Source of the DNA: a virus
Length of the DNA stretch: 24,046 nt
Virus record (IMG/VR): IMGVR_UViG_3300010883_000466
Span: 1 to 24,046 of that record
Strand: one strand, 5' to 3'
In this document: piece by piece, positions 3,696 through 24,046 of the stretch
Layout: every line of letters starts with the position of its first letter
How positions within the stretch are numbered: the first letter of the stretch is position 1
Position numbers and translations under genes: made by a program
The notes under the pieces: generated by a model
Seen by the model: the letters and a program-made list of their open reading frames with translations, nothing else
What the model was told of the DNA's origin: nothing
Databases searched by the model: none

Positions 3696-6600
3696 ATGGC
3701 CGAACAGACGTTTAAATCACCTGGCTTCTTTGAAAGAGAAATCGATCTCACAAGAAGAGAAGCCGAGATTGTTGGTGTTCCTGCTGGAGTAATTGGTACA
3801 TCAGAAACCGGTCCTGCTTTCGTACCCACGACAGTTGGATCATTTTCTGATTTTGAAAATAAGTTTGGCTCACTAAACCCAGACATGTTTGGTCCGTATG
3901 CTGTTAGAGAGTTTTTAAAGCACAAGAATGCATTAACTTACATTAGAGTTCTTGGTGCTGGAGCAAACTCTGACTCAACGGACATAGCAAACACAAGAGC
4001 TGCTGGGATTGTTAAAAATGCTGGATTTCGCGTAATAGGTTCAGCAGCAGCTGTTGTAGCGACTGACAGTACACTTGGAAGATCAGTTGGTGCTGTACAG
4101 TTTATAGCAGCTAGACACTATGTATCTGCATCAGAAGAGAAAAATGGGTTACCAATATTTTCTGATAATGACAGTTTTAGTATTCCGTCTGCTGATGGAT
4201 CTGTATATCTAATCCGGGGAATGCTATTTTCAACTACAGCCTCAAGATTTGAGATACTATCAAATACATCAGGTACATGGGCTGCAGGATCATCAGTTAA
4301 TAATGACGCTGCTATAAGTGATGGTATATCTGGTGAATTTAAGCTGGTTATATCTTCTTCTTCTGGTGCGGGATTTTCAAATGATGAAAGCAGACCAGGA
4401 ATTAGAATATACACAGCATCCTTAGATCCTGTATCAAAAAACTACATTGGAAAGATACTAAATACAGATCCTGCAAGATTTCAATCAGAACAGCATTTAT
4501 TATATGCTCATTTCCCCGTTGAAGACGAAATAGCTTCAGTTGAAAAGAAATCTAAAGTGCCTACTATTGCACTTCTATCTGGCTCTGGTAACACATCACA
4601 GGAATCTGGTGTATCTAATCTTTCATTTTTAGATAGTTTTGGAAGATTTGATACAAGATATACAGCTGCTAGAACTACATATTTCATATCACAGCCCTTC
4701 GGTAAGAAAGAATATGATTTATTCTACTTTGAAGCAATTTCTGACGGTGCTATTGCTAACCAGAAGTATAAAGTTTCAATAAGCAATATTAGAAAGCCTA
4801 CAGATCCTTCAAATGATTATGGAACATTTACAGTAGAGGTTAGAGACTTTGAAGACTCTGATACATCTCCTCAGATACTTGAGCAATATCCTCTTTGTAC
4901 ACTTAATCCTCTATCAAGCGATTATATTGCAAAGAAAATAGGTGACTTTAAAGTATCATATAATTTTGATGCATACACAGAAGATGAAAGAAGATTAAAT
5001 GTAGCAGGAAAATATCCAAACATGTCTTCTAGAGTTAGAGTTGTTATAAATACTGAATTAGAAGAGGGTAAGCTTCCGGCGAAGTCGCTACCCTTCGGGT
5101 TTAGAGGTTTTCCTGCGCTAAAGACAACTGATACATTAGTAGATGGTTCAACTCTCAGGATCAAAAAAGGTAAAAGAAGACTATCATTTGTATCAGACGT
5201 TGAAATTGTAAATACTAATAGACTTTCTGGGTCAATTCTTCCTCCTGTACCATACAGATTTAAGGTTACAAGAGGTCTTGCAAGTAAAAGTCAAAACTTC
5301 ACAGGAGATCATGGAACAAATGAAATTGTTGATTCAAGATTTTACTGGGGAACAAAGTTTGATAGAGTTCCAAGAACTGGATCAATGGCAGATGCAATAC
5401 TAAATGCAAATGCTTCATCTGAAGTTAATGATTTATTTAGAAATTATTCAAAATTATTAGGTATTGCAGGTCTTGATAACTTAGTAACAGGTTCAGGTGC
5501 AGATAGGTTTAATAATAATAAATTTACTCTTGCAAGAGTTGCACTATACAACTCAATAGCAAGCAATACGTCTGGCGATCCTGATCTCTCCACAACAGCA
5601 AATACTGTCATAACAGGTACTGCCAAGGAACACATTTTAGATACAGCATATATTAGAAACGGTATTCCCGATACAGACACATATGTAGTCAGTGACGGAA
5701 CACTGACTAGTAGAGTTACATTTGCATCTCTTGCAGCAATGACATCATCGATATATTTTAACAAGTTTACAAACTATGCCAAGTTTACAAACTTTATGTA
5801 TGGCGGCTTCGACGGAGTAAACATACTTGACACTGATATGTCTAAACTAAACGACAGGGCATCTTCTTCAGACTCAGGCGGATTAGCAGCTGGAGTATTA
5901 GATATTGGATTATCAACAACTAACGAGTTCGGAACAGGAAAAACAAATAATATTGTAGCATCATACAGAGCAGCAGCTAGAATATTAACAGACGAAATGG
6001 CTTCAAGGGTAAATATAATTACAATTCCAGGAATTAGAGATTCTGCTGTCACTGACTTTGTAATGGAAAGAGTCTCAGACTACGGAAAGGCATTCTATGT
6101 AGTTGATGTACCATCATATGATGCAGATAGTAAGAGATTATTCTCTGATAGTTCGGAGACACCAGATGTTACAAAAACATCTGAGCTGTTTGAGGGAAGA
6201 GCTGTAAATAGCAATTATTCTGCAGTTTACTTCCCAGATGTTACTGTAGAAGATTCAATAAATAATAGACATGTAGATGTTCCTGCATCCATCTCAGTCA
6301 TGGGAGCACTTGCTTTCAATGATAGCGTCGCTTACCCATGGTTTGCACCGGCAGGATTTAATAGAGCTGCTCTTGATTTTGTAACTAATGTTAAAGTTAG
6401 ATTAAATCAATCTGATAGAGATCTTCTATACACATCTAGAATAAATCCGATTGCAACATTCCCAAATGCTGGATTCGTTATCTTTGGGCAAAAGACATTA
6501 CAGATTACAAAGAGTGCTCTAGACAGGGTTAATGTTAGAAGAATGATTCTTGAAGTAAAGCGAATTGTTTCTGATGTTGCAAATAAAAGTGTATTTGAAC

Positions 6601-6836
6601 AAAATACACCTTCAACTAGAGCTACATTCGTTAAGCATATAATACCACTTCTTTCAACAATTCAAATACAGCAGGGAATTGATACATTCAAGGTTGTTAT
6701 GGATTCAAGCAATAATACTCAAGAAGATGTTGAGAATAATGTATTAAACGGAAGAATTGTTGTCGTGCCAACTAGAGCAATAGAATTTATAGCAATAGAC
6801 TTTATTGTAACTTCTGCTGGTGTAAGCTTTGAATAA
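3696..6836 (+). CDS. Tail sheath protein 1, gp18-like
   Basis: A 1046-residue contractile tail sheath subunit. The N-terminus has the sheath signature: FKSPGFFEREIDLT (5-18), then GVPAGVIGTSETGPAFVPT, then a FGPYAVREFL segment. The C-terminal third has the conserved sheath core: YPWFAPAGFNRAAL at about residue 880, LYTSRINPIATFP, FGQKTLQ, LDRVNVRRMILEVKR, and an end segment VVVPTRAIEFIAIDFIVTSAG. These termini form the conserved domain that makes the subunit mesh and contacts the tube. The middle (about 110-850) contains large protruding insertions. T4 gp18 is 659 residues, so this is a much enlarged form. A close paralogue follows directly, 34 nt downstream. Sheath identity is secure. Confidence 0.95.
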   Translation: MAEQTFKSPGFFEREIDLTRREAEIVGVPAGVIGTSETGPAFVPTTVGSFSDFENKFGSLNPDMFGPYAVREFLKHKNALTYIRVLGAGANSDSTDIANTRAAGIVKNAGFRVIGSAAAVVATDSTLGRSVGAVQFIAARHYVSASEEKNGLPIFSDNDSFSIPSADGSVYLIRGMLFSTTASRFEILSNTSGTWAAGSSVNNDAAISDGISGEFKLVISSSSGAGFSNDESRPGIRIYTASLDPVSKNYIGKILNTDPARFQSEQHLLYAHFPVEDEIASVEKKSKVPTIALLSGSGNTSQESGVSNLSFLDSFGRFDTRYTAARTTYFISQPFGKKEYDLFYFEAISDGAIANQKYKVSISNIRKPTDPSNDYGTFTVEVRDFEDSDTSPQILEQYPLCTLNPLSSDYIAKKIGDFKVSYNFDAYTEDERRLNVAGKYPNMSSRVRVVINTELEEGKLPAKSLPFGFRGFPALKTTDTLVDGSTLRIKKGKRRLSFVSDVEIVNTNRLSGSILPPVPYRFKVTRGLASKSQNFTGDHGTNEIVDSRFYWGTKFDRVPRTGSMADAILNANASSEVNDLFRNYSKLLGIAGLDNLVTGSGADRFNNNKFTLARVALYNSIASNTSGDPDLSTTANTVITGTAKEHILDTAYIRNGIPDTDTYVVSDGTLTSRVTFASLAAMTSSIYFNKFTNYAKFTNFMYGGFDGVNILDTDMSKLNDRASSSDSGGLAAGVLDIGLSTTNEFGTGKTNNIVASYRAAARILTDEMASRVNIITIPGIRDSAVTDFVMERVSDYGKAFYVVDVPSYDADSKRLFSDSSETPDVTKTSELFEGRAVNSNYSAVYFPDVTVEDSINNRHVDVPASISVMGALAFNDSVAYPWFAPAGFNRAALDFVTNVKVRLNQSDRDLLYTSRINPIATFPNAGFVIFGQKTLQITKSALDRVNVRRMILEVKRIVSDVANKSVFEQNTPSTRATFVKHIIPLLSTIQIQQGIDTFKVVMDSSNNTQEDVENNVLNGRIVVVPTRAIEFIAIDFIVTSAGVSFE

Positions 6837-6870: not shown

Positions 6871-9870
6871 ATGGCTGAGGTAACTTATAAAAGTCCAGGA
6901 GTTTTTGCAAATGAGGTTGATTTAACTCAACCCTCTAGCACTACTCCTTCTGGAGTTCCTGCCGGTGTAATTGGTACAGCCAACGAAGGTCCAGCATTTA
7001 TTCCCATTACTGTTGGATCATACACTAACTTTGTCAGTGTATTCGGTGCATCAGATGGTACTAAGTTCGGACCACTTGCTGTTAATGAATTTTTAAGAAA
7101 TGCAAAAGCATTAACCTACATAAGAACTCTTGGAATAGGAGACGGAAAGAAAAGAAGCACATCTACAGGAAAAGTTACAAATGGTGGGTTTATTGTAGGT
7201 GCTAATCAAGTTCAGCAGAGTGGTATAGTTGCTTATAACCCATATGCCGTTGCTGCAGGTGATGCTGGAAGATTACACTTCCTTGGCTGTTTCATGTCAG
7301 AGTCAGCAGGAAGCAAAATATTCAGCGACGCAGGAATTAATAATGGTGTAACAGCAAGCGTAATAATTAGAGGTGTTTTAATGGCACCAGCAGGTGTTAT
7401 TCCGTTACTTTCTGGTAATTTCACCCTTGGAGATAGTTCAAATCCCACAAACACAGATGCAGCAACTGCAGGTGCCTCGACACTCAAAGGTGGAATGACA
7501 GGATCTGTAAACCTCGGAACTCAGCAATTTACACTGTTGCTTAACGGACATATTAGCACAGAAGATAACCCAAATGTGTATTCCTGCTCCTTTGATATGG
7601 AAGCATCAAGTTATTTTGCAAATGTGCTAAACACAGATCCGACAAAAATTGAAGAAAGAGGTCACTTATTATACTCACACTATGATATTCATCCTGCACT
7701 TGCATCTGTAACTGGCTCTGGATTAATTAAAGCATATAATAAATATACTAAAGACGGAAAAACTGAAGAACCTATTGGATTTATAGTAACGGGTTCAAGC
7801 GCAAGAAATACTGCAACAACTACAGCACCAAACTATGAATCGTTTGAAGAAAGATTCACAATACCAAAGACTCCGTTCATTATTTCACAAGGTTTTGGTG
7901 GTATAAAGCATAATCTATTTAGAATTCATGCAATCTCTGCTGGTGAGTTTAATAATACTAAATTTAAAGTTTCAATTGAAAATATAAAGAAATCAGCAAG
8001 TACATTAAATCTATTTGGAACATTTGATCTAATCGTAAGACGATTTGAAGATAGTGATTATGAAAAGTCTATGCTTGAAGCGTTTAGAGGCTTAAGCTTA
8101 GATCCTTCAAGTGATAGGTTTATAGCTAGAGTAATCGGTGATCAATTTGCATACTTTGACTTCGATCAAGCAACTTCATCACAGAAGCTTGTTATAGAAG
8201 GAAATCACTCTGTCAAATCAAATTACATTAGAATTGAGCAAAGTAATCCACTAAAGAGTGGACAAGTTCCAAATGAAGCTCTACCGCTTGGCAACAGAGG
8301 CCCAGGACACTTAGTAACATCTGGATCAAACCCACTTGCAGATGTTGGGGGAGTTCAAGTTGTAGAAGCCGTTGATATTCAAGGATTTATTAGAGGCGCA
8401 ACAGAGCCACCCATTCCGTATAGAGAGAATATTTCTGTTGGAACTTCTCCAAACAATAGAGTTGAACCAGTTCTTTACTGGGGAGCTCAGTTTACACAAA
8501 AGAGCTCATTAACAAAACTAAATGATAGAGGATTACTAGACAAATCAATTGGATCATACGCTAAATTCTTCCCAAGCTTTGACCCTACAAACAGAAACAT
8601 TTTTGTTGAAAACAACCAAGGCACTGCAGATAGTGCAGGAACAGTTCTTGATTGCGACAGGTTCAACAGAAATATCTTTACACTTGAAAACATTAGTGTT
8701 AGAACGGGATCTGATACACTGGCTGATATAAATGAATGGTCAAGTGCTTCATATGTCAGAGCCGGGGGCATCTCAGCAAACGAAGCCAACAAGACAAGAG
8801 CATTTAGTGTAGATGATCTCGCTGTCCAGGGAAACAGAACATATGCTAAGTTTACAACATTTTTGCAAGGTGGATTTGATGGGCTTAACATGTTTAACAA
8901 TGATAAGAAAAATCTATTAAATGCAGCTGTAAAGAGAGAAATAGACGACTCAGCTGCACAAGGAGGGACGGCAGGACCTACAGTATCAGCCTATAGAAAG
9001 GCACTAGATATTATGGGAACAAAGTCTGATATTGATATCAAAATTCTAGCTGTCCCTGGTCTAAGACATTCATCTGTTACAGATTATGCACTAGATGTAG
9101 TTGAAAGCAGATTTGATGCAATATACATCATGGACATTGAAGAAAGAGATGAACTAGACACAGTAATAACTTCATCAGTTGCTTCATCTCCTAATGTTGG
9201 ATTTACAGTTACAGCTTTAAAGAATAGAGCACTAAATTCATCATTCGGCGCAGCATACTTTCCAGATCAAGTAATTCAAGACCCTGCGACTAAGACAAGT
9301 ATACAGGTCCCACCTTCTGTACCGGTGCTTGGTGCATTCGCATTAAATGATTCAATTGGTTACCCATGGTTTGCACCGGCAGGTTTTGCAAGAGGAGCGC
9401 TGGAAAGTGTTCTATACTCAACACTACCGCTCAACAAGAAAAACATGGACGATCTCTACGATGCAGATATTAATCCGCTTACATCATTTCCGGGAACAGG
9501 AATAATGGTATTCGGACAGAAGACACTACTTTCAGATAACTCATCACTAGATAGAGTAAATGTTAGAAGATTACTAATCGATATTAGAAGAAAGGTTAGA
9601 AATGTTGCCAACAGAATGCTATTTGAGCCGAACAGACAAGAAACACTTGATAAGTTCAACTCATTAGTTAGCCCCATTCTACAAAGAATTCAAGAGAAAA
9701 GCGGCGTTGATAGATACAAAGTTATAATTGATGCCACAACAACAACTCAAGCAGATGTTGAAAATAACACGCTAAGAGGTCAAATATTTATTCAGCCTAC
9801 AAGAACAGCAGAATTTATTGCTCTTGACTTTGTGTTATCAAATGCTGGAGATGCATTTGAAAATGCGTAA
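6871..9870 (+). CDS. Tail sheath protein 2, gp18-like paralogue
   Basis: A 999-residue second sheath protein, homologous to its upstream neighbour along the whole length. Shared landmarks in the same order are YKSPGVFANEVDLT, GVPAGVIGTANEGPAFIPIT, FGPLAVNEFL, a central LLYSHYDIHPALASV, FEDSDYEKSML, YPWFAPAGFARGAL at about residue 830, FGQKTLL, LDRVNVRRLLIDIRRKVR, and the terminal PTRTAEFIALDFVLSNAG. The two copies share an identical 24-bp DNA stretch over the YPWFAPAG codons (6332-6355 and 9360-9383), but they diverge strongly elsewhere, especially in the variable middle. Both look intact, with no internal stops. The ribosome site is GGAG. Whether both enter the same tail or are alternatives cannot be told from sequence. 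Confidence 0.95.
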   Translation: MAEVTYKSPGVFANEVDLTQPSSTTPSGVPAGVIGTANEGPAFIPITVGSYTNFVSVFGASDGTKFGPLAVNEFLRNAKALTYIRTLGIGDGKKRSTSTGKVTNGGFIVGANQVQQSGIVAYNPYAVAAGDAGRLHFLGCFMSESAGSKIFSDAGINNGVTASVIIRGVLMAPAGVIPLLSGNFTLGDSSNPTNTDAATAGASTLKGGMTGSVNLGTQQFTLLLNGHISTEDNPNVYSCSFDMEASSYFANVLNTDPTKIEERGHLLYSHYDIHPALASVTGSGLIKAYNKYTKDGKTEEPIGFIVTGSSARNTATTTAPNYESFEERFTIPKTPFIISQGFGGIKHNLFRIHAISAGEFNNTKFKVSIENIKKSASTLNLFGTFDLIVRRFEDSDYEKSMLEAFRGLSLDPSSDRFIARVIGDQFAYFDFDQATSSQKLVIEGNHSVKSNYIRIEQSNPLKSGQVPNEALPLGNRGPGHLVTSGSNPLADVGGVQVVEAVDIQGFIRGATEPPIPYRENISVGTSPNNRVEPVLYWGAQFTQKSSLTKLNDRGLLDKSIGSYAKFFPSFDPTNRNIFVENNQGTADSAGTVLDCDRFNRNIFTLENISVRTGSDTLADINEWSSASYVRAGGISANEANKTRAFSVDDLAVQGNRTYAKFTTFLQGGFDGLNMFNNDKKNLLNAAVKREIDDSAAQGGTAGPTVSAYRKALDIMGTKSDIDIKILAVPGLRHSSVTDYALDVVESRFDAIYIMDIEERDELDTVITSSVASSPNVGFTVTALKNRALNSSFGAAYFPDQVIQDPATKTSIQVPPSVPVLGAFALNDSIGYPWFAPAGFARGALESVLYSTLPLNKKNMDDLYDADINPLTSFPGTGIMVFGQKTLLSDNSSLDRVNVRRLLIDIRRKVRNVANRMLFEPNRQETLDKFNSLVSPILQRIQEKSGVDRYKVIIDATTTTQADVENNTLRGQIFIQPTRTAEFIALDFVLSNAGDAFENA

Positions 9871-10596: not shown

Positions 10597-11406
10597 ATGC
10601 CGACGAGCCATATACCTACACAAGATATTATGAAAGATGAGTTTGACTGGGAGATTCCCGTTGAAGCTGTTCCAATTCCATCAGCTGGCCAAGTATACCC
10701 TGCAGGATCATCTCTGCACGGTAGAGATAGACTAGAAATCAAAGCAATGACTGCTAGAGAAGAGGACATTCTAGCATCTCGTGCTCTAATCCAGTAAGGA
10801 AAAGTAGTTTCAAGATTAATTGAATCATGCTTGATAGACAAATCAGTTAATGTTAATGATATGTTGCTTGGTGATAAAAATGCCTTAATGATTTCAATTA
10901 GAATTACTGGGTACGGAAGTCTCTATAAATCAGAGTCAACATGTCCATCATGTAAAAAGCAAAGTAAGCAAGAATTCAACTTGTCTGAACTTGAAATTAA
11001 GCGTCTTACAATTACTCCAGTCAAGCCGGGTGAAAATATATTTGAATTTAAGCTTCCAGTTACAGGAAAAGATGTATTATTTAAATTCTTAACTGGAATA
11101 GATGATGAAGAAAGATCAATTATTGCAGAAAGAAAGAAAAAGCTTATGCCTGGAATTGAAATAGATGAAAGTGTTACATCTAGATTAACACAACAAGTAT
11201 TGTCTGTTGCAGGCATCACAGATAAAAATAAACTAGGCTACTTTGTAAAAAATATGCCTGCACGGGACTCTCGAGCACTAAGAACATACATTGAAAAACA
11301 TTCGCCAGGAATAGACATGTCGACGTGGATGAAATGTCCACATTGCACAGAAGCATCAAAGGTTAATCTTCCAATTGGAAGCAATTTTTTTTGGCCCGAG
11401 GAATAA
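10597..11406 (+). CDS. gp26-like baseplate/tail assembly protein, interrupted by in-frame TAA
   Basis: Read through one internal stop, this 270-codon frame is a recognisable T4 gp26-type (T4_baseplate family) protein. Residues 20-66 contain VEAVPIPSAGQVYPAG and the conserved LEIKAMTAREEDILASRALI. Then comes Q, TAA (10795-10797), and in the same frame GKVVSRLIESCLIDKSVNV and DKNALMISIRITGYGSLY. In relatives the segment reads roughly 'SRALIKKGTVIS', so the TAA sits where a Lys is expected. Two CxxC pairs (CPSC near residue 116, CPHC near 247) suggest a zinc ribbon. The downstream piece has only a TTG (10831) as possible start and no ribosome site. A nonsense mutation, a sequence error (AAA to TAA), or stop readthrough could each explain it. 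T4 gp26 is about 208 residues. Confidence 0.75.
10795..10797 (+). other. In-frame TAA inside the gp26-like gene
   Basis: The stop codon lies after codon 66 (context CAG TAA GGA). Both flanks encode conserved family sequence in one frame, so no shift or insertion is needed to join them; a single base change (A to T in AAA) is enough. No hairpin or pseudoknot that would favour readthrough is obvious just downstream. Confidence 0.9.
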
Positions 11407-11696: not shown

Positions 11697-13931
11697 ATGC
11701 CAGAAACACCATCAGCCGAAGATGTTAAATCACAAGAAACGTTATATAGAAAAATATCAGACTCAATACGAGAAGCAAATTCTCTTCTAGAGGATCAATA
11801 TAAGCTTAATGAGTTGAATAGGGCATCTTTAGAAGGTCAAACATACGATGCTGATGCAGTGGCAGAGGCCCTTTCTCGTGCAGGATCTAGTGCAGCTGAC
11901 CTTGCAGGATCTGTCGAAGAAGCTGCTGGTGAAACAGCTAAAGCTGATGAACACACTAAGAACTTGTACCAGGGTTTAGAAACCGTCCTCGGCGTCATCG
12001 GCCAGGTCGCCGCTGGTGTCACCAACATGGCAATGGGCTTACATGACATGGTGTTTCCCGAAAACTTCATGAGACAGCTTAACGTCATTCAGGAAAACTT
12101 TGGTACAATAGGAAGAAATTTAGATAATGAAGCTGATGCGCATGCATCAATGCTTGTTGATATTGCAGGTAAGCTACAAAAACTTACATTTGACCCAGAC
12201 ATAACAAATAAAATTTCAAAAGCCCTTGGTGGCACCTCAATATTACAAGTGTATCAAGGCGACTTAGAAGATGCAATGTCTACTGTTAATGAGCTTATTC
12301 TTGGTCCCACTGGCATGCTAGCCGGTATGAATATAATAAAGAATATGAATGCAGAAGTTGCAATTGAGATGGATATTCTTGGAAAGGGGTTGTCATTAAA
12401 CTCTGAGCAAATTGGTACATTTGTAAGTAGACAAATAAGCTTAACAGGCAAATCAGGCCCAGAAATGCTTGAGCAAGTTGCTGTATACTCAAAAATAATT
12501 GCTGCAAAAACAGGTGATAACCAAAAAATTATTTCTGCTGGTGTGGAGCGTATAATTAGTGATACTGAAAACTTTGGCAATGTTTCAATAATTGAAGCAG
12601 CAAGAGTAACATCAAATCTTAGACAGATGGGTATTGGGTTTGAAGACTTACAAGGAGCTGTAAGCAAATTTCAAAACTTTGAATCAGCAGCACAGTCTGT
12701 TGCAGCACTTACAACTGTGTTTGGTGTTCAATTGGATGCAATGGAGATGATGAAGCTTTCCAATGAGGATCAAGGTGAATTTCTTCTTAGACTGAGAGAA
12801 TCATTTATTGCAACAGGAAGATCAGCAGATAACTTAACACGAGCAGAAAAAGCTCTCATTAAAGAACAATTAGGATTTACAGACATTGAGTCAGTTGAAA
12901 GATTATTTAACGCTGACGCTATAATGATTGATGGAGCCGAAGCTCTTGCTGCTGTAGAAGGAACAGCTGTAGATATGGAATCTGCACTTGCATCTATTGG
13001 GGGCAGTGTTGAGGGAATAAGAACACCAGCACAAGTTGTAAAAGATACATATAACGCTACTCGAGGTGTAATGATGGCGAAGTTTGATCTTGTTGATGAA
13101 CTTAAAGGCTTGGGCGTGGAAGCCCAGAAAACATTTGACATAATGTGGAACAGACTTTCAAGCGGAGCTGTACTCAGTGAAGAAGAGCTTCAAGAATTTA
13201 GTGTTGGACTACGTACAAGTACTGAAGATGTCAAAGAACTCCAAGCCCACATGAAGGCCACCCAGGAAGAAAACATTGCTCCTGACATTGATAGGAGTCA
13301 GGTCGAAACTATACTGTCGAGTGTCCAAGATTCCTTCGCAACCGCCAGTGCCAAGCTCGGGCCAAGCATTATTGAAGGGATTCACGCTGTTCAGTCACTT
13401 CTCAAAGACGAGGGTGTGGAAGGCGGAGAAAACTACATCGACGGCTGGCAGAAAGCCGACGCCTTAGCCGCCAGCCCATCGGGGCTAGGGCTTAGGATTG
13501 TTAAAGGAATTGTAGATGCAATGAAAACACTGCCAGATCACTTTAGAGATGTATTTGATGAATTGAACAGCATAGCAGCAGAATCATCATCAGGCATTGA
13601 TAAGTCATATAGCGAACTTGAATTAACACCTACAATTATACCAACAATATCAGAAGATAATAATATGGATCTTGTTGGAAAGGCGTTGTCATTAAGCTCT
13701 GAGCAGGTTGGTGCACTTGTAAGCGGACAAATAAGCTCAACAGACAAAAATAATGGCGGAGATAAAAATATTATTGCTTCAATAGATGAATTAACAGCAG
13801 AAATTAGACAATTAATTGAAGCTAAGGTACCTATTCGTCTTGAACTTGACGGAAAGGAAATAGTTAATTATATTATAAGTCACCCATTAGGGACAAATGG
13901 TAGATTAATTACAAAGCAAAGAGGATTATAA
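11697..13931 (+). CDS. Tail tape measure protein
   Basis: A 744-residue, mainly helical, Ala/Glu/Ser-rich protein in the tape-measure position, straight after the gp26/gp51 chaperone pair. It fixes tail length by spanning the tube lumen, and is ejected before the DNA. Residues 1-90 look like coiled coil. About 94-120 is a hydrophobic Gly/Ala/Val stretch (LETVLGVIGQVAAGV), as often found in tape measures that enter the host membrane. Residues 140-460 are long amphipathic helices. At roughly 1.5 angstrom per residue a tail near 110 nm would be expected. A segment at 225-252 is duplicated near 657-684, and codons 512-598 are unusually GC-rich. T4 gp29 is about 590 residues. Identification is by position and composition, with no diagnostic motif. 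Confidence 0.75.
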   Translation: MPETPSAEDVKSQETLYRKISDSIREANSLLEDQYKLNELNRASLEGQTYDADAVAEALSRAGSSAADLAGSVEEAAGETAKADEHTKNLYQGLETVLGVIGQVAAGVTNMAMGLHDMVFPENFMRQLNVIQENFGTIGRNLDNEADAHASMLVDIAGKLQKLTFDPDITNKISKALGGTSILQVYQGDLEDAMSTVNELILGPTGMLAGMNIIKNMNAEVAIEMDILGKGLSLNSEQIGTFVSRQISLTGKSGPEMLEQVAVYSKIIAAKTGDNQKIISAGVERIISDTENFGNVSIIEAARVTSNLRQMGIGFEDLQGAVSKFQNFESAAQSVAALTTVFGVQLDAMEMMKLSNEDQGEFLLRLRESFIATGRSADNLTRAEKALIKEQLGFTDIESVERLFNADAIMIDGAEALAAVEGTAVDMESALASIGGSVEGIRTPAQVVKDTYNATRGVMMAKFDLVDELKGLGVEAQKTFDIMWNRLSSGAVLSEEELQEFSVGLRTSTEDVKELQAHMKATQEENIAPDIDRSQVETILSSVQDSFATASAKLGPSIIEGIHAVQSLLKDEGVEGGENYIDGWQKADALAASPSGLGLRIVKGIVDAMKTLPDHFRDVFDELNSIAAESSSGIDKSYSELELTPTIIPTISEDNNMDLVGKALSLSSEQVGALVSGQISSTDKNNGGDKNIIASIDELTAEIRQLIEAKVPIRLELDGKEIVNYIISHPLGTNGRLITKQRGL
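12369..12452 (+). repeat. 84-bp internal repeat of tape measure, copy A
   Basis: Encodes MDILGKGLSLNSEQIGTF and ten more residues. Aligned codon by codon without gaps to copy B (13665-13748), I count 12 mismatches in 84 bases. Flanking sequence does not align. Confidence 0.8.
13665..13748 (+). repeat. 84-bp internal repeat of tape measure, copy B
   Basis: Encodes MDLVGKALSLSSEQVGAL and ten more residues, the partner of 12369-12452. It sits in an Asp/Asn-rich linker close to the C-terminus, immediately after the run of ordinary codons that follows the GC-rich patch. Confidence 0.8.
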
Positions 13932-17713: not shown

Positions 17714-18010
17714 ATGGCAATTAGTAGATACGCGTTCACACAACAGATATTAGGAAGATCAACACTTGCAACAAACAAGATATCAAAAAAAGTCTATGAT
17801 GGCGTGTTATCTGGTAACATACCATTTAGTACACAAGTAATTAAAGAAGGACAAAGACTTGATCACATTGCTGCGCTTGCATATGGTTCATCAAGCCTGT
17901 GGTGGGTCATCGCAGCAGCATCAGGAATAGGCTGGGGATTGCAGATACCAGAAGGTACTGTTATAAGAATACCCAATAACATTAATGATGTAATAGAAAG
18001 AGTTAGATAG
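17714..18010 (+). CDS. LysM-domain baseplate protein (gpX / gp53 C-terminal type)
   Basis: A 98-residue protein. Residues about 42-90 form a LysM-like fold: VIKEGQRLDHIAALAYGSSSL, then WWVIAAASGIGWGLQIPEGTVIRIP. In contractile phages such short LysM proteins (P2 gpX, or the C-terminal part of T4 gp53) sit at the baseplate/hub and bind tail parts; they need not bind peptidoglycan. It has a clear AAGGGA ribosome site before the ATG, and it lies 2 nt upstream of the hub-like gene, so the two are likely coupled. The placement after a large baseplate gene and before a hub-like gene agrees with the role. Confidence 0.8.
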   Translation: MAISRYAFTQQILGRSTLATNKISKKVYDGVLSGNIPFSTQVIKEGQRLDHIAALAYGSSSLWWVIAAASGIGWGLQIPEGTVIRIPNNINDVIERVR

Positions 18011-18012
18011 CC

Positions 18013-21000
18013 ATGGGAAGCAATAAATCAGGATTACCAAATAAGCTAGCCTGGGCTGTAAGTGAGCTCAGAAGTTATTACGGCGGGCTAGGAAAAGACA
18101 ACATAACAAGTGTTGTAGTGACAAGTGTAGATGAAAAAGAAGATATTATTACTAACTATGGTTACACCCTCGACGGCGGAGCAGATGTAACAACAGCTGA
18201 GTATGCTGTTGATGAAAAGCTAGTTAGCACTTTAATTAGCACACTATTAGATAATACTGAAGCATCTTACTTTACTCGGGATTTAATTAATCCAGACGGT
18301 AATCTTATAACAAGGTTTCAAGTCACTGGCGACGCCGAGGCCCCGTATGACACTACTGAGCATATTGTAAAAGTTCTATATGAATCATCTTTTGCTCGGG
18401 CTCAATCTGATGATAAAAAGTTTATTATATCATCAGCATATAATAATGGAGATAATAATGATGTATCAGTTTCAAGAATGCTTAAACCGCATTCTACAGA
18501 TCCTAGCAAGCCAGGTGCTGTAACACACGATTTTGATGTAAATAATGGGGGGACACCAGATAGATATAAAAGCCCAGACCTATCAGCATTTATATTTACA
18601 AATAACAAAATATCACCATCAACTAGATCGACAGATGCTATTTCATTATACATGAATTCAATTCCTACAATTGAAAGAAGTAGATGCATTCCGTATATAA
18701 ACATTCAATTTGCATCTATTGTCAATAGCAGTCTTGGAAAAAGAACAAGTCAGTTATCAACATTAAGATTTCTCGGGATGAACAGCTCAGAAAATAATGA
18801 ATTTGATAGCATAGGACTAGGAGATGCACTTCCTGTAGATCTATTATCATCAAATGAAAGAGAAGACATAAACACAGTAAATAAATCTGTATCTGCTGCA
18901 GGAATGGAGCTTTTCACATCACCTCAAACAATGGTGAATATGGATATAAACTCAAATGGATTTTCTGGTCCAGCAGGTGATGTACTAAATAAGCTAGCCC
19001 CTCTAATGACACTTGAAAATGTTACATTTGATATTGTTGGACTTGGGCAAGATTTATTTGCTTACAAAACAGGAGCATTAACATTTGTGCTACATGATAG
19101 ATCTAGAATGTCTGATATAGCACCAATAATTGCTGCAGACTTATTTTCATCAACATATCTTATTATGGAGTACGGTTGGTCACATCCAGACGGCGGATAT
19201 TATACAGATAATGCTTACGGTGCATTTTTGAATTCATTAAGAAGTAGAGGTGCATTTAATATAGTATCTACTAATTTTAGCATTGATGATGATGGTCAAG
19301 TTAGATTTACCCTGAAGTTTTTATCACGCGGCTCATCAGAAATTAAAGCTTACCCGATAGCAACAGGTCCAGTTATGCCACTAGGACAAATAAAAGAAGT
19401 ATTCAAAAGATACATTTCAAATAGAATTGAAGAGGAAAATGACAAAGATAAGGAAAACAGATCATCTGAAATTAGACAAAAGCTAAACATAGGCACATCA
19501 GCAGCGAGTTCTTCTTCTACAGTTATCTATAGAGAGATTTATAACAAAATACAAGATCAGCTAAAGAATCAGACAGCTGGAGATGTTGCAAGCTTAACAG
19601 GAATAATAGAGATTGTAAAGCAACTTATTGGTGATGTAGAGACAACAAATAGTGATACATCAGATAAAGAAACATCTGATGATAACATAAGGGATAAAAG
19701 TAAAGCTTCACTAATGCAGACTATAAGGGAGAAGATCAGTGGTCTATACAACACAGAAGATCCATTCCTGTCAGATCCACCAAAATACTTTCATACAATA
19801 GTAGAACAAGCTCCCGCAAACCCTGTGTCACTTGGAAAGGTTATCATGGCATTTGTCGGCTATCCACTTGCTGGGACAGGAAAGTTTGATGAAGTTCAAA
19901 TGATGTTCTACACATTTAATGATCAATCAGCAGGTGCAAGAAGTTATGAATCAATTGCAAACTTTATAATAGACATAGAAGATCTTGAAAGAATGCTAAT
20001 TGAATATGCTGAAAAAGTCCCTGGTATTAGCATATCAAGCTTCATGACAAAAATAATTGATGTAATTGTTACAAGAATGGATAACTCAAACTATGGTTTA
20101 CAAGATTTGAAAAAGCAATCTGCTGCAATAAGAGACGACAAAGAAGCATCAGATGAGCAAAGACAAAATAATATCGATATAGTAAATAAACAGATCAGTG
20201 AGCGAATCACAGAAATGTATAAAAATACAGGAGGCGGTGATCCAGACTTTGTACCTCCAAAAATCAGACTATCACTTGAATGCACAACAGCATTTGTAAA
20301 AAATAGCGATGCTAGCTCAGGTGAGAACGAATTTAAAATAGACGATTCAAAAAATATATTAAAAGTGCATGTATTTGATGCTGCTTCTACACCGTATAGC
20401 GATGAATTATTTCTGCTTAAGGCAATAAATGAAACAGATCTTGCAATTAGAGTTAAACCATCACAGGGTTCAAACAGCACAGAAGAAGAATCTACTGACG
20501 AAAGTTCAGGCGGCTCAAGCCAGAGCAAAGCAGGGAATAGTTCAAGATCTGGTACAATAGACGTCGCACTTAAAAAAGGATTCGTAGAACAGAGTGAAAG
20601 CGATTCAGACAGCTCTCTTAAGTATATTATACCTGTTGCATCATCTACGAAGATTAAAGAATTGATAAAGAAAGTTGTTCCAAGCATTACATTTGGGTCA
20701 ATGTTTACATCAATATCAAAAATGGGAATGCAATCCTCAACTTCAGGGCAAGTTAACAATGTTCAACTTCTCAATTCAACAAGAGATGTAGATGAAGATC
20801 ATGATGTTCCAGCAATGACGCTGGAAACAGAAGATATATTTGTAATTCCCACAAATGCAGATATAACAACACTGGGCTGCCCGCTATTTGAATACGGACA
20901 ACACTTTTTTGTAGACATGGGAACTGGTACAACTGCTGATAATATGTACTATGTAACAAAGATAAGTCACACAATCAGCCCAGGCAATTTCAGTACAAAC

Positions 21001-21111
21001 ATAGGCTTAACATTTTCAGCAAGCGGAACAGTATCATCTTTTAGAAGTATACTTGAAGCAGCACAGGAGAAGATGATAGAGCAAGATAAAAAAGAGTCAA
21101 GTGATCAATGA
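18013..21111 (+). CDS. Large baseplate hub-like protein
   Basis: A 1032-residue virion protein, probably part of the baseplate hub. Near residue 385 is the segment LIMEYGWSHPDGG, followed by YGAFLNSLRSRGAFNIVSTN and FSIDDDGQVRFTLKFLSRG, a pattern I associate with hub proteins of large marine myoviruses. The C-terminus has LGCPLFEYGQHFFVDMGTG, then a TTADNMYYVTKISHTISPG segment, like the end of hub domains of gp27/gpD type. Residues 475-510 and 690-740 are charged helices, probably coiled coil. Around 815-850 is a Ser/Gly/Glu linker. The start ATG follows the LysM stop by 2 nt. Hub assignment is by motif memory and by position; no lysozyme or spike domain is visible. Confidence 0.6.
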   Translation: MGSNKSGLPNKLAWAVSELRSYYGGLGKDNITSVVVTSVDEKEDIITNYGYTLDGGADVTTAEYAVDEKLVSTLISTLLDNTEASYFTRDLINPDGNLITRFQVTGDAEAPYDTTEHIVKVLYESSFARAQSDDKKFIISSAYNNGDNNDVSVSRMLKPHSTDPSKPGAVTHDFDVNNGGTPDRYKSPDLSAFIFTNNKISPSTRSTDAISLYMNSIPTIERSRCIPYINIQFASIVNSSLGKRTSQLSTLRFLGMNSSENNEFDSIGLGDALPVDLLSSNEREDINTVNKSVSAAGMELFTSPQTMVNMDINSNGFSGPAGDVLNKLAPLMTLENVTFDIVGLGQDLFAYKTGALTFVLHDRSRMSDIAPIIAADLFSSTYLIMEYGWSHPDGGYYTDNAYGAFLNSLRSRGAFNIVSTNFSIDDDGQVRFTLKFLSRGSSEIKAYPIATGPVMPLGQIKEVFKRYISNRIEEENDKDKENRSSEIRQKLNIGTSAASSSSTVIYREIYNKIQDQLKNQTAGDVASLTGIIEIVKQLIGDVETTNSDTSDKETSDDNIRDKSKASLMQTIREKISGLYNTEDPFLSDPPKYFHTIVEQAPANPVSLGKVIMAFVGYPLAGTGKFDEVQMMFYTFNDQSAGARSYESIANFIIDIEDLERMLIEYAEKVPGISISSFMTKIIDVIVTRMDNSNYGLQDLKKQSAAIRDDKEASDEQRQNNIDIVNKQISERITEMYKNTGGGDPDFVPPKIRLSLECTTAFVKNSDASSGENEFKIDDSKNILKVHVFDAASTPYSDELFLLKAINETDLAIRVKPSQGSNSTEEESTDESSGGSSQSKAGNSSRSGTIDVALKKGFVEQSESDSDSSLKYIIPVASSTKIKELIKKVVPSITFGSMFTSISKMGMQSSTSGQVNNVQLLNSTRDVDEDHDVPAMTLETEDIFVIPTNADITTLGCPLFEYGQHFFVDMGTGTTADNMYYVTKISHTISPGNFSTNIGLTFSASGTVSSFRSILEAAQEKMIEQDKKESSDQ

Positions 21112-21114
21112 CTA

Positions 21115-21136
21115 GTTTAAGTTTTAAAACTTAAAC
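21115..21136. promoter_or_regulatory. 22-bp perfect palindrome
   Basis: GTTTAAGTTTTAAAACTTAAAC reads the same on both strands; written in parts it is GTTTAAGTTTT plus AAAACTTAAAC. It lies 3 nt after the hub stop and 29 nt before the polymerase ATG. As RNA it can form a 9-bp A/U-rich hairpin with a TTAA loop, weak and without a U-tract, so a terminator is doubtful. A dimeric repressor site or an mRNA processing/protective hairpin at the border of the structural and polymerase cassettes are alternatives. Confidence 0.5.
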
Positions 21137-21165: not shown

Positions 21166-22350
21166 ATGCATATTGCGCTTTCAAAGCAATTCCTTGGGAC
21201 ACCACATCATATGGTATATGATGGCACATTGTTTACTTGGTCAGATTATATTCCTGATAGTTCATGGTTGTTTGGGTTTGATAGCCCAAGAGATCTTAAG
21301 TGTGTTGCTGATGCTCTTGGTGTTAAACTTAATACATTTAAATCATCTCCACACGGAACATCAATTCGCGAAATATTTGGTGAAACAATTGATATAGTTC
21401 CGTGGATTCGTGCTTTACCTAAAGTAACATTTAATGAAATACTAACAAGCCTTCTGGGTCAGCTCTGGCAGCTTTGCGCAGATCAAGCTGCAAGTTACTA
21501 CCTTAATAGGTTTATAAGTAACAGAGAGCTGATAGAGAGCTTACACAGACCGCTTATTGACGCTGTCCTGCTTAGTACTATTGCACAAAAGGAAACTATT
21601 AAAAGAAATGAGATTTTAAGATTCTCTCCAGATGAAAATGGATATGCAAAACGAACTGTATACAATTTAATAAAATCATCAACTGGACGTCTAACTGTAT
21701 CTAGTGGACCAAACATCTTAATACTGAAAAAAGAGTATAGAAAGTTAATAAAATCTAGATTCAATAACGGAAAAATATTTCAAGCAGACATTGTATCATT
21801 AGAGCCAAGAATTGCGCTAGCTGTGGCAGGAAAAGAAATTCCTGAAGATATATACGAATTTTCTAGAACTGAATTATTAAACTCTTCTGTTACGAGAAAG
21901 GAAGCAAAGATTATAACTTTAAGTTGTATATACGGATCATCTGAATGGGCACTTTCGAAGCAACTTCCTGCCAGGCTTAATTCAAAAGATGTGCTTAGAC
22001 GTATTAGATCTTATTTTAATATAGATGAGCTTGAAAAGAGTTTAACAGAAGAATATATGAAACTTGGTTATATAAAAAATGCATACGGACGTCATTTAGA
22101 TCCTGGAGATTCTATTGTAAACAGATTCTTGCAGTCGTCTGGTGTTGATGTATCATTTGAAGTATTTGAAGATATTAATAAAAATATAACAAACTTCAAA
22201 GATGAATGTTTACCAATTTTTATTATTCACGATGCTGAATTGTTTGATGTAAGCAGTGAAGCAATTGATAAACTTAAGAGTGCTACTAGCAAAAGTATTT
22301 ATGTCAAGACACTCGATGCTCACTTTCCAATAAAACTAGAGGTCGTTTAA
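21166..22350 (+). CDS. Short family A DNA polymerase, no exonuclease
   Basis: A 394-residue protein with the polymerase core of family A (Pol I-like). In order: TGRLTVSSGPN (173-183), motif A IFQADIVSLEPRIALAVAG with catalytic Asp208, the finger O-helix RKEAKIITLSCIYG (Arg244, Lys248, Tyr256), KNAYGRHLDPG (304-314), NRFLQSSGVDV (Gln323), and motif C FIIHDAELF with His355-Asp356. The position equal to E. coli Phe762 is Leu252. In motif C, Ala replaces the usual Glu right after HD, with a Glu one place later. No 3'-5' exonuclease motif is present, and the N-terminal 150 residues leave room only for a reduced thumb. Usual Klenow-type enzymes are about 600 residues. No clear Shine-Dalgarno precedes the ATG. 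A replicative, repair or gap-filling role is possible. Confidence 0.85.
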   Translation: MHIALSKQFLGTPHHMVYDGTLFTWSDYIPDSSWLFGFDSPRDLKCVADALGVKLNTFKSSPHGTSIREIFGETIDIVPWIRALPKVTFNEILTSLLGQLWQLCADQAASYYLNRFISNRELIESLHRPLIDAVLLSTIAQKETIKRNEILRFSPDENGYAKRTVYNLIKSSTGRLTVSSGPNILILKKEYRKLIKSRFNNGKIFQADIVSLEPRIALAVAGKEIPEDIYEFSRTELLNSSVTRKEAKIITLSCIYGSSEWALSKQLPARLNSKDVLRRIRSYFNIDELEKSLTEEYMKLGYIKNAYGRHLDPGDSIVNRFLQSSGVDVSFEVFEDINKNITNFKDECLPIFIIHDAELFDVSSEAIDKLKSATSKSIYVKTLDAHFPIKLEVV

Positions 22351-22354
22351 TAAA

Positions 22355-22924
22355 ATGTTATCAATTGAAGATATACAAAAAAACTGGGAGATGTTTGAGT
22401 CTCTATGCAATATGATAGAAGATGAAAACATCAATACTATGCTAGGAGTAATTGAAGGCAGGGTTGTATCATGCCCTGCATCTTCAAAGCTTGATCAGTA
22501 CGGTGCATATCCCGGAGGGCTTGTTGAGCATGCAATAACAGTTACAAATTATTTAAGCAAGCTCAATAAGCTATATTCACTTAATATGCCTAAATCATCT
22601 ATACTTAAGGTTGGATTATTTCATGATCTTGGAAAGATAGGCAATCTTGAAGTTGATTTATTTATTGAACAAGATTCACAGTGGCATATTGATAAGCTGG
22701 GACAGATGTATAAATTTAATGAAAAAATACAAAAGATGTCAACATCACATAGAACATTATTCTTGCTTCAATACTTTAATATAAGAATAAGTGAAGATGA
22801 ATGGATAGCTATTCAAGTTGCTCAAGGGAGCCACTTTGAAGAGAATAGGTTCTATGTTGGAGCTGAACCTTCATTAGCAATGTTGCTTCAACAAGCAAAA
22901 GCTGCAGTTCTTCATATGAAATAA
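22355..22924 (+). CDS. HD-superfamily (phospho)hydrolase-like protein
   Basis: A 189-residue protein of the HD fold. Visible motifs are YPGGLVEHAITV (His59), LFHDLGKIG (His90-Asp91) and possible third and fourth ligands His132 (TSHRT) and His160 (QGSH). The usual last Asp, expected in a C-terminal 'LLHxAD' segment, is not there: the matching stretch reads LLQQAKAAVLH (177-187), with Lys in place of Asp. The family hydrolyses nucleotides or cyclic nucleotides with a bound metal pair. This copy may have changed its ligands or lost catalysis. It starts 4 nt after the polymerase stop and is surely co-transcribed, which suggests nucleotide or DNA metabolism. Function beyond the fold is not known. 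Confidence 0.75.
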   Translation: MLSIEDIQKNWEMFESLCNMIEDENINTMLGVIEGRVVSCPASSKLDQYGAYPGGLVEHAITVTNYLSKLNKLYSLNMPKSSILKVGLFHDLGKIGNLEVDLFIEQDSQWHIDKLGQMYKFNEKIQKMSTSHRTLFLLQYFNIRISEDEWIAIQVAQGSHFEENRFYVGAEPSLAMLLQQAKAAVLHMK

Positions 22925-22941: not shown

Positions 22942-22949
22942 TATTTATA
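22942..22949 (+). promoter_or_regulatory. TATTTATA motif touching the start of the last gene
   Basis: The octamer ends on the first base of the ATG at 22949. It matches 126-133 and 11671-11678. As it overlaps the start codon it could act as a promoter only for a leaderless transcript on the + strand, which weakens the promoter reading. Confidence 0.15.
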
Positions 22950-24046
22950 TGAGTAAATCAAAGCGTGCAATTAAGACTGAACGTTATGTCACAACAGGCG
23001 ACGGAACTGTTCAAGCCGGCGGAGGACGACCTGCTACAATTGGCGGCGCTGGAGCAATGGGCGGCAGTGACACATTTGCCCAGCGGTTTGGAAAAAATAA
23101 GAAGAAGTTTTCACCCTACCAGCTCGGTTCACCAAGTCAAGTTGCTGATGCGACACTTTCATCTAGACTCTCTCAGTCAAATGCAGGAAGAGGCTACTTA
23201 GAAAGCACTATAGATTCTGATCTAGCCGAGCTTATTTCTACTATGTTCCCTGATCAAGCTGTTGAAGATGATTTTGATGTTGACTTAGAAGATCATCTTG
23301 CTGTAACTGGTAAGGTCTCAAGGGTAAAAGAGACATATAAGTTTGATGAATCTTATATTGTTGAAAATAGTAGATATAGTCTAGTAAAGACATTTGATAG
23401 TATAAATGAAGAAAATTTAGGCGATATAGCTATCGACTTTATTGGTGACACAGTTTCAGCTGCAATTGGGACAGTACCTATTTTTGGAGATGCAATGTCT
23501 GCAGCATTTGCAGGCGTGAATATATGGCAGCTTAATAATGATGTCGAAAGGGCATATAAGAATATACAAAAACATGAAAGTAATCCAACTGAAAAAACTG
23601 TGCTGTTACTCCAGCAATCGTTTGATGACATAACAACAAACTTAGTCGACCTGTTTCAGAGGATGCTAGAGATTTCACCTGATCCTGGCGCAACTGAGAT
23701 TGCCTCCGAAGCAATCTCAGTAGCTCAAAATGTAAAGAAAATAGTCAAGCTTTCAGTAAATCTTAAAAAGACAGTTGTTCCAGTTATCGGCAAGATGGCG
23801 GGAAAATATGCTAAAGAGTGGACAGAAGACCGAGCAAAAAAGCTAGTTGGTAAGTATATTGGAAAAAAAGTCGGTAGTGGTGTTGGATACACCGCTTCGA
23901 AGACTGCAATGATTCTTGCAAGGAAATTTATAGACACAATACTTGATGGAATTGTTTCCATTATTGATCTAGATATAACGCCTAGTAAAATAAAGGATAA
24001 TAAAGATTCAATACTTGCGCTGCCAAGGACGCTAATAAGGCTATCA
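22949..24046 (+). CDS. Unidentified protein with membrane-like segments (3' end outside window)
   Basis: An open frame from ATG (22949) runs to the window edge, 366 codons without a stop. Residues 1-55 are basic and Gly-rich (MSKSKRAIKTERYVTTGDG, then AGGGRPATIGGAGAMGG). Residues 85-115 are acidic. About 160-193 is a hydrophobic Gly/Ala pair of helices (FIGDTVSAAIGTVPIFGDAM) that could insert in a membrane. Residues 195-260 are amphipathic helices, and about 290-345 is Lys/Gly-rich and then hydrophobic (GKYIGKKVGSGVGY; ILARKFIDTILDGIVSIID). I do not recognise the family. It may be a virion protein delivered with DNA or a membrane-acting protein. No clear ribosome site is seen; the gap from the HD gene is 24 nt. 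Confidence 0.75.
   Translation, partial: MSKSKRAIKTERYVTTGDGTVQAGGGRPATIGGAGAMGGSDTFAQRFGKNKKKFSPYQLGSPSQVADATLSSRLSQSNAGRGYLESTIDSDLAELISTMFPDQAVEDDFDVDLEDHLAVTGKVSRVKETYKFDESYIVENSRYSLVKTFDSINEENLGDIAIDFIGDTVSAAIGTVPIFGDAMSAAFAGVNIWQLNNDVERAYKNIQKHESNPTEKTVLLLQQSFDDITTNLVDLFQRMLEISPDPGATEIASEAISVAQNVKKIVKLSVNLKKTVVPVIGKMAGKYAKEWTEDRAKKLVGKYIGKKVGSGVGYTASKTAMILARKFIDTILDGIVSIIDLDITPSKIKDNKDSILALPRTLIRLS

Follow-up and report, generated by a model that had tools for sequence, protein, structure and literature searches.

T4-like phages normally replicate with a family B polymerase, and T4, with its family B enzyme and clamp, is the textbook phage replisome. What, then, is the job of a 394-residue family A polymerase encoded directly behind the baseplate genes of such a phage? 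The gene lies in the window analysed here, a 24,046-bp IMG/VR fragment (IMGVR_UViG_3300010883_000466) that stops 1.7 kb past it. We refer to its product as the mini-PolA: fingers, palm and thumb preceded by about 60 residues with short beta strands, and no exonuclease.

Sequence, fold and active site of the mini-PolA

The mini-PolA open reading frame occupies exactly positions 21166-22350 of the plus strand and begins with ATG. By the curated Pfam cut-off, its product belongs to family A (PF00476, DNA_pol_A: 41.0 bits against a cut-off of 34.3, E 1.5e-10). It also matches PHROG_17, "DNA polymerase" (E 2.7e-12), and a profile built from eight homologues retrieves the Taq, Klenow and Bst polymerases from the PDB with E values down to 3e-12. 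An AlphaFold2 model based on a 64-sequence alignment (mean pLDDT 94.0, pTM 0.89) has Klenow as its top Foldseek match, and the comparison with T7 gp5 and Klenow proposed in the first-pass annotation gave a fit to both, with VIA-align Z scores of about 22-23 (Taq Klenow, 23.3 over 352 residues; T7 gp5, 22.0 over 382). The window protein is predicted to have the palm, fingers and thumb of a polymerase. Together with the motif aspartates described below, these matches confirm the family A polymerase that the first-pass annotation had placed here.

The same annotation described the thumb as reduced, which is not borne out: 174 residues precede the TGR-motif Arg, against about 148 counted from residue 520 in E. 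coli Pol I, and this stretch holds long helices at 62-77, 86-105 and 107-124. The missing exonuclease domain, on the other hand, is real. None of the four carboxylates of the Pol I (Klenow) 3'-5' exonuclease (D355, E357, D424, D501) has an equivalent in the window protein, and no full equivalent of the set was found when it and its HDA-type relatives, named after their motif C, were compared. Because the T7 gp5 alignments start near residue 1 of both chains, the N-terminal 60 or so residues of the mini-PolA may be the remnant of an exonuclease domain.

Close relatives were not evident in phage records, where tblastn with the window protein returned only generic PolAs, and a pattern search of viral contigs with this single protein gave no match. 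We reached relatives first through the sheath gene and then, through a polymerase alignment, at 80 loci; the alignment search of IMG/VR yielded 315 matching stretches in all. The sole match in a GTDB genome (locus L200, taken as the same contig as L175) is on a contig of 108,871 bp, exactly as long as the IMG/VR contig of L175; its binning with a Halobacteriovorax MAG is a possible hint of a host.

The active site was compared over 67 distinct relatives. Motif A centers on Asp208 (codon 21787-21789, plus strand; D705 of E. coli Pol I), with E213 and R215 downstream. Motif B, the O helix (21895-21933, plus strand), carries R244, K248 and Y256, with Leu252 at the position of F762. Motif C reads HDA, with Asp356 (codon 22231-22233, plus strand) flanked by H355 and by Ala at the position of E883. 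Invariant in all 67 are R175 (R668), D208, E213 (E710), R215 (R712), R244 (R754), K248 (K758), Q323 (Q849) and D356 (D882); Y256 (Y766) and H355 (H881) are each kept in 66. Both catalytic aspartates and the O-helix Arg and Lys are in place, and relatives with a mutated Asp208 or Asp356, which the first-pass annotation had named as evidence against its reading, were not found among the 67. Its statement that all core motifs are present needs amending, however, in that motifs B and C are variants: position 252 is Leu in 33 relatives, Ile in 29, Met in three, and Phe and Asn in one each, and the E883 position is Ala in 67/67. The aliphatic residue and the Ala make the rate and fidelity of the enzyme unpredictable. 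Natural phage polymerases with Leu762 abound in virioplankton, and in vitro activity is known for some of them (PMC6302109, PMC9069017). Pairwise dN/dS of the mini-PolA gene is 0.02-0.16 in nearly all informative close pairs, and values of 0.07 and 0.29 come from two near-identical pairs that differ at hardly any site; judged by these ratios, the gene is under purifying selection.

Gene neighborhood and the HD-domain protein

Upstream in the window are T4-type tail genes: a head-tail adaptor, a sheath stabilizer, two sheath genes, the tube, a gp26-like hub and a gp25-like baseplate wedge subunit. The last (17714-18010, plus strand; PHROG_7145, E 7.2e-7) is found upstream of the mini-PolA in 51 loci. 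It is followed by a large protein gene (18013-21111, plus strand) that adjoins the mini-PolA and is conserved in 73 loci; we call it the gp6-position gene from its place after gp25 only. The tandem sheath genes (3696-6836, 1046 aa; 6871-9870, 999 aa) each have about 640 residues ahead of the PHROG_23 match, and the pair also occurs in related contigs G001, G002, G003 and G007. Between the structural module and the mini-PolA is an AT-rich 54-nt gap in which a 22-bp perfect palindrome, GTTTAAGTTTTAAAACTTAAAC (21115-21136), can be read, and a promoter and terminator scan around the mini-PolA gene showed no excess over shuffles.

Across the 80 loci, the order is gp25, gp6-position gene, mini-PolA, HD-domain protein, often an unknown protein of about 520 aa, gp32-like SSB, UvsX, flap nuclease, gp41 helicase, ribonucleotide reductase (RNR) and Clp, nearly all on one strand (gene names are from Pfam, PHROGs and homologues in the Microcystis phage Mel-JY01). 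The mini-PolA, HD, SSB, UvsX, flap nuclease, gp41 and RNR genes are co-directional in most of them. In the window itself, the record end cuts the gene after the HD gene (22949-24046, plus strand), which encodes the 5' part of a protein of some 500-600 aa that has no match among the PHROGs and is conserved between the HD and SSB genes (a 46-gene cluster from 41 loci). This conserved order indicates that the mini-PolA heads a replication cassette and is no insert among baseplate genes; it does not lie inside the structural region, as first described, but at its 3' edge, as the first gene of a replication and recombination cassette.

Several genes of other kinds were seen in the related contigs. 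Consecutive genes in G001 (59486-64884; locus L093, 986-6384) encode ClpP, malate synthase, isocitrate lyase, an endolysin and a glutamine synthetase-like protein, so that both glyoxylate shunt enzymes are present on a T4-like phage contig. At about 200.8-212.2 kb of G002 (locus L084), both the UvsX and the RNR gene are fragmented, and a homing-endonuclease-like ORF lies between the RNR pieces. In locus L188, the mini-PolA (which ends at 11224) and the HD gene are separated by a gene of Clp type and by an ORF (11926-12489) that by eye resembles translation initiation factor IF-3.

The gene that follows the mini-PolA in the window begins 4 nt past its stop codon (22355-22924, plus strand) and encodes a 189-residue HD-domain protein, a candidate 3'-5' exonuclease partner with a predicted YhaM-like fold. 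Its Pfam HD match is weak, and its PHROG is annotated as phosphohydrolase. The AlphaFold2 model (pLDDT 95.3) has YhaM (9h3f) as its best VIA match, at Z 17.2 against 9.4 for the next fold, and YhaM is the sole match of its profile in the PDB (E 0.0083). YhaM degrades ssRNA and ssDNA, cuts RNA 3'-5' and requires its HD residues; members of its family were initially identified as DNA-binding proteins with a possible part in replication (PMC11347170). We also considered a 2-aminoadenine pathway, in which an HD dATPase, DatZ, is encoded beside PolA, and rejected it, YhaM being by far the best fold match. The HD cluster comprises 75 genes and accompanies the polymerase in 75 of 81 records, the window included, with a gap of 60 nt or less, and often an overlap, in 47 of the 75. 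Three of the remaining six records (L119, L172, L184) are cut off just past the polymerase; in L133 and L143 a DnaQ-type exonuclease fills the HD slot, and L187 has neither.

The metal site H59, H90, D91 is present in the window protein. Among 60 relatives, H59 is kept in 50, H90 in 55, and D91 in 42 (plus Glu in nine); with ligands incomplete in part of the family, the HD protein may not be a nuclease everywhere. We hypothesize, on the modelled fold, that it acts as a 3'-5' exonuclease. The first-pass annotation had allowed for a split full-size PolA with its exonuclease half nearby. No such half (PF01612) scores over the cut-off, but part of the idea survives in the adjoining YhaM-like protein and in its DnaQ-type substitute in two relatives.

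Candidate replicases of the related phages

Which polymerase copies these genomes was examined in 27 long mini-PolA contigs totaling 2.7 Mb. The family B polymerase (PF00136) that marks a T4 gp43-type replisome was found in 0/27, with T4, Mel-JY01 and RM378 positive in the same search; the window is too short to tell. RM378, considered as a precedent for a split family A enzyme, was discarded as such, because its 522-aa enzyme has family B motifs and scores with PF00136. The search for PF00476 returned one gene per contig in 26 of the 27, the mini-PolA of G030 falling below its threshold; a second weak match to the mini-PolA query in G001 (95760-96248) was dismissed, as it belongs to no Pfam family.

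In contrast to family B, a family C polymerase (PF07733) is present in 17/27 contigs, which include near-duplicates (e.g., G032/G038 and G033/G047) and so represent fewer independent cases. Its distance downstream of the mini-PolA is 14.4-41.1 kb (median 29.2 kb). In the ten contigs where it was not found, the sequence past the mini-PolA extends for 0.2-26.2 kb; the gene is present wherever this stretch exceeds 26.2 kb. In most of the 17 it is a single open frame of about 1180-1365 aa, shorter or split in G003 and G037. The 1188-aa enzyme of G001 has PHP, Pol3_alpha, finger and HHH domains, and the PDIDTD/PDIDSD motif is kept in both family C proteins inspected. Since G001 is among the nearest relatives of the window (45% identity in the PolA, 67% in the sheath), we infer a family C replicase for the window phage too, such an enzyme having been seen in its relatives only. 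Directly upstream of the G001 family C gene is a DnaJ homologue (about 78.0-79.0 kb; locus L094, 1-1017). A bacterial beta clamp (PF02767) was found in none of the 27 contigs. Clamp-loader queries from Mel-JY01 had no match in G001, G002, G003 or G007, and phrog_168 gave weak matches, the best at E 3.7e-16 (G002).

Three distant phages carry a mini-PolA in the same setting. In Immutovirus (Flavobacterium phage immuto), the same cassette starts with gene 1, which encodes 441 aa and already has the database name "DNA polymerase family A"; the gp25- and gp6-position genes are found at the opposite end of the record, and the HD homologue is 77 kb away. A separate 777-aa family A polymerase at 37.9 kb is full length and apparently the Immutovirus replicase. 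Mel-JY01 (50397-51623, deposited as a hypothetical protein) and the 484-kb LR756508 (240919-242277) have their mini-PolAs in the same slot of the same cassette, and further downstream both encode a family B polymerase and homologues of gp44 and gp62. A Mel-JY01 gene annotated as DNA polymerase I (55792-56832) was considered as the mini-PolA and set aside; its sequence is that of a 5' nuclease, with counterparts among the cassette genes. In LR756508, two ORFs separated by about 3 kb (259363-262416 and 265422-267287) share the family B match, a pattern suggestive of an intron, intein or split gene. Immutovirus (MW353176) also has, as annotated, a 7-deazaguanine DNA modification set at 18607-36971 (QueC, QueD, QueE, FolE, QueF, DpdA).

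The three distant mini-PolAs match each other and form a clade with support of 100. All three have E710H, R754Y and H881Y (the TSRP type); recurring in phages so divergent, these changes suggest a variant form of the active site more than random decay. The HDA-type proteins form a clade of their own (support 100/99). The tree leaves the two types unjoined, a single clade being neither supported nor rejected (p-AU 0.45), so common descent of the slot, that is, the same gene persisting through replicase swaps, rests on gene order. We advance only tentatively the broader proposal that, across deep T4-like branches, the cassette keeps a dedicated mini-PolA as its fixed element while the main replicase is exchanged among families B, A and C, with Pol I disassembled into neighboring genes (a flap nuclease and an HD- or DnaQ-type 3'-5' exonuclease) and proofreading drawn from the non-homologous HD exonuclease.

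Proposed role and known systems

In bacteria, a family C replicase leaves primer replacement and gap filling to Pol I. The combination found here, a family C replicase together with a cassette that encodes both a flap nuclease and a free-standing Pol I-type enzyme, fits this division of labor between Pol III and Pol I. We somewhat favor the reading that the mini-PolA is an active, exonuclease-less accessory polymerase for gap filling and primer replacement beside the family C replicase. A family C (Pol III alpha) enzyme would copy the genome in this lineage in place of T4's family B gp43, and the mini-PolA would fill gaps and replace primers, the tasks of Pol I in bacteria that replicate with Pol III. 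Alongside it, the flap nuclease encoded in the cassette would do the 5'-nuclease job, and the YhaM-like HD protein, or the DnaQ-type protein in some relatives, is the candidate for 3'-5' trimming or proofreading; Pol I functions would in this way be spread over separate neighboring genes. Catalysis by the mini-PolA, the gap-filling job and the HD partnership are all steps that we infer.

That the mini-PolA is accessory rather than the main replicase is quite probable in itself, because relatives that have no family B polymerase carry family C, and because Immutovirus combines a mini-PolA in the same slot with a full PolA, and Mel-JY01 and LR756508 combine one with PolB plus gp44/gp62 homologues. 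The first-pass annotation had offered a different replication scheme or an accessory enzyme as alternatives; the relatives point to both at once (PolB in 0/27, family C in 17/27). We had ourselves favored the mini-PolA as sole replicase on the empty PolB search and rejected this on the positive family C search. The reading in which the mini-PolA is the main replicative polymerase and family C the auxiliary seems unlikely: T7 is a precedent for a family A enzyme as phage replicase, and the mini-PolA stands beside helicase, SSB and RNR in every member with its active site kept, but it has no proofreading and is smaller than replicases usually are, contigs of sufficient length all carry a family C enzyme, and related phages with PolB or a full PolA carry a mini-PolA as well. 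A more serious competitor, though still one to which we give a minor share, is a role in recombination-dependent replication or repair, the mini-PolA extending the invading 3' end of UvsX-made D-loops ahead of the replicase and having no part in Okazaki maturation. UvsX and the gp32-like SSB are neighbors as much as the flap nuclease is, and T4-type phages begin much of their replication by recombination (described also in PMC7824862); the flap nuclease and gp41 helicase are, however, in the same cassette, so that neighborhood alone favors neither recombination nor gap filling.

The two other explanations turn on the HD protein and on the variant motifs. A split family A holoenzyme, in which the mini-PolA core and the exonuclease subunit next door form one proofreading polymerase, would account for the tight, often overlapping HD gene, its YhaM-like fold and the DnaQ-type substitute in L133 and L143. 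We consider it improbable, given that the HD neighbor is not homologous to the PolA exonuclease domain, that nothing matches PF01612 over the cut-off, that the HD ligands are degenerate in part of the family, and that the Immutovirus homologue lies far from the polymerase and L187 has neither gene. Loss of polymerase activity, leaving a DNA-binding or structural protein, could be read into the constant Ala at E883, the aliphatic residue at F762, the E710, R754 and H881 changes of the TSRP-type relatives and the location directly after baseplate genes. Yet 67/67 retain the two catalytic aspartates together with the counterparts of R754, K758 and Q849, dN/dS is well below 1, and in vitro activity has been seen in some natural Leu762 phage polymerases (PMC9069017), which makes an inactive protein highly improbable.

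A large, mostly uncultured T4-like group appears, then, to have swapped family B for family C while keeping a minimal Pol I-type polymerase. If the accessory role is true, this is a natural case of an exchangeable main replicase with a non-exchangeable helper polymerase, and Immutovirus on Flavobacterium is a cultured relative in which the idea is directly testable. A 394-aa exonuclease-free polymerase could also serve as a reagent. The mini-PolA cassette of T4-like phages was not found described in the open-licence literature, which is weak evidence of absence.

Compared with known systems, the window protein resembles E. coli Pol I and Klenow in its predicted thumb, palm and fingers and in its equivalents of R668, D705, E710, R754, K758, Y766, N845, Q849, H881 and D882. 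It differs in having neither the 3'-5' exonuclease carboxylates nor a fused 5' nuclease, which is a separate gene of the cassette, and in F762 to Leu and E883 to Ala. With T7 gp5 it has in common that it is a phage-encoded family A enzyme, the model aligning at Z 22 over 382 residues, but in T7, gp5 is the only replicase and includes an exonuclease domain, whereas another enzyme probably replicates the genome here. The leucine at position 762 is that of the virioplankton Leu762 PolAs; the synthesized members of that group are 564-760 aa long, however, against 394 for the window protein (PMC6302109, PMC9069017), and the Leu762 types neighbor SNF2, UvrD or RecB helicases, mostly without RNR, whereas the mini-PolA is found with gp41 and RNR. 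A family C enzyme with a PHP domain is the phage replicase in jumbo phage subgroup 3.2 as well (PMC7824862); the same paper describes other jumbo phages in which Pol III alpha has taken over, and a mini Pol III alpha that is split and accompanies PolB. Unlike the mini-PolA clade, subgroup 3.2 lies outside the T4-like group 2, and the section consulted mentions no mini-PolA. Mel-JY01 and LR756508 depart from the window's relatives in encoding PolB plus gp44/gp62 homologues and in their TSRP-type active site. Immutovirus gene 1 is likewise a stand-alone mini-PolA at the head of an SSB-UvsX-flap nuclease-helicase-RNR cassette, close after gp25- and gp6-position genes, and differs from the window in its TSRP/YDAF-type active site, its separate 777-aa PolA and an HD homologue located elsewhere.
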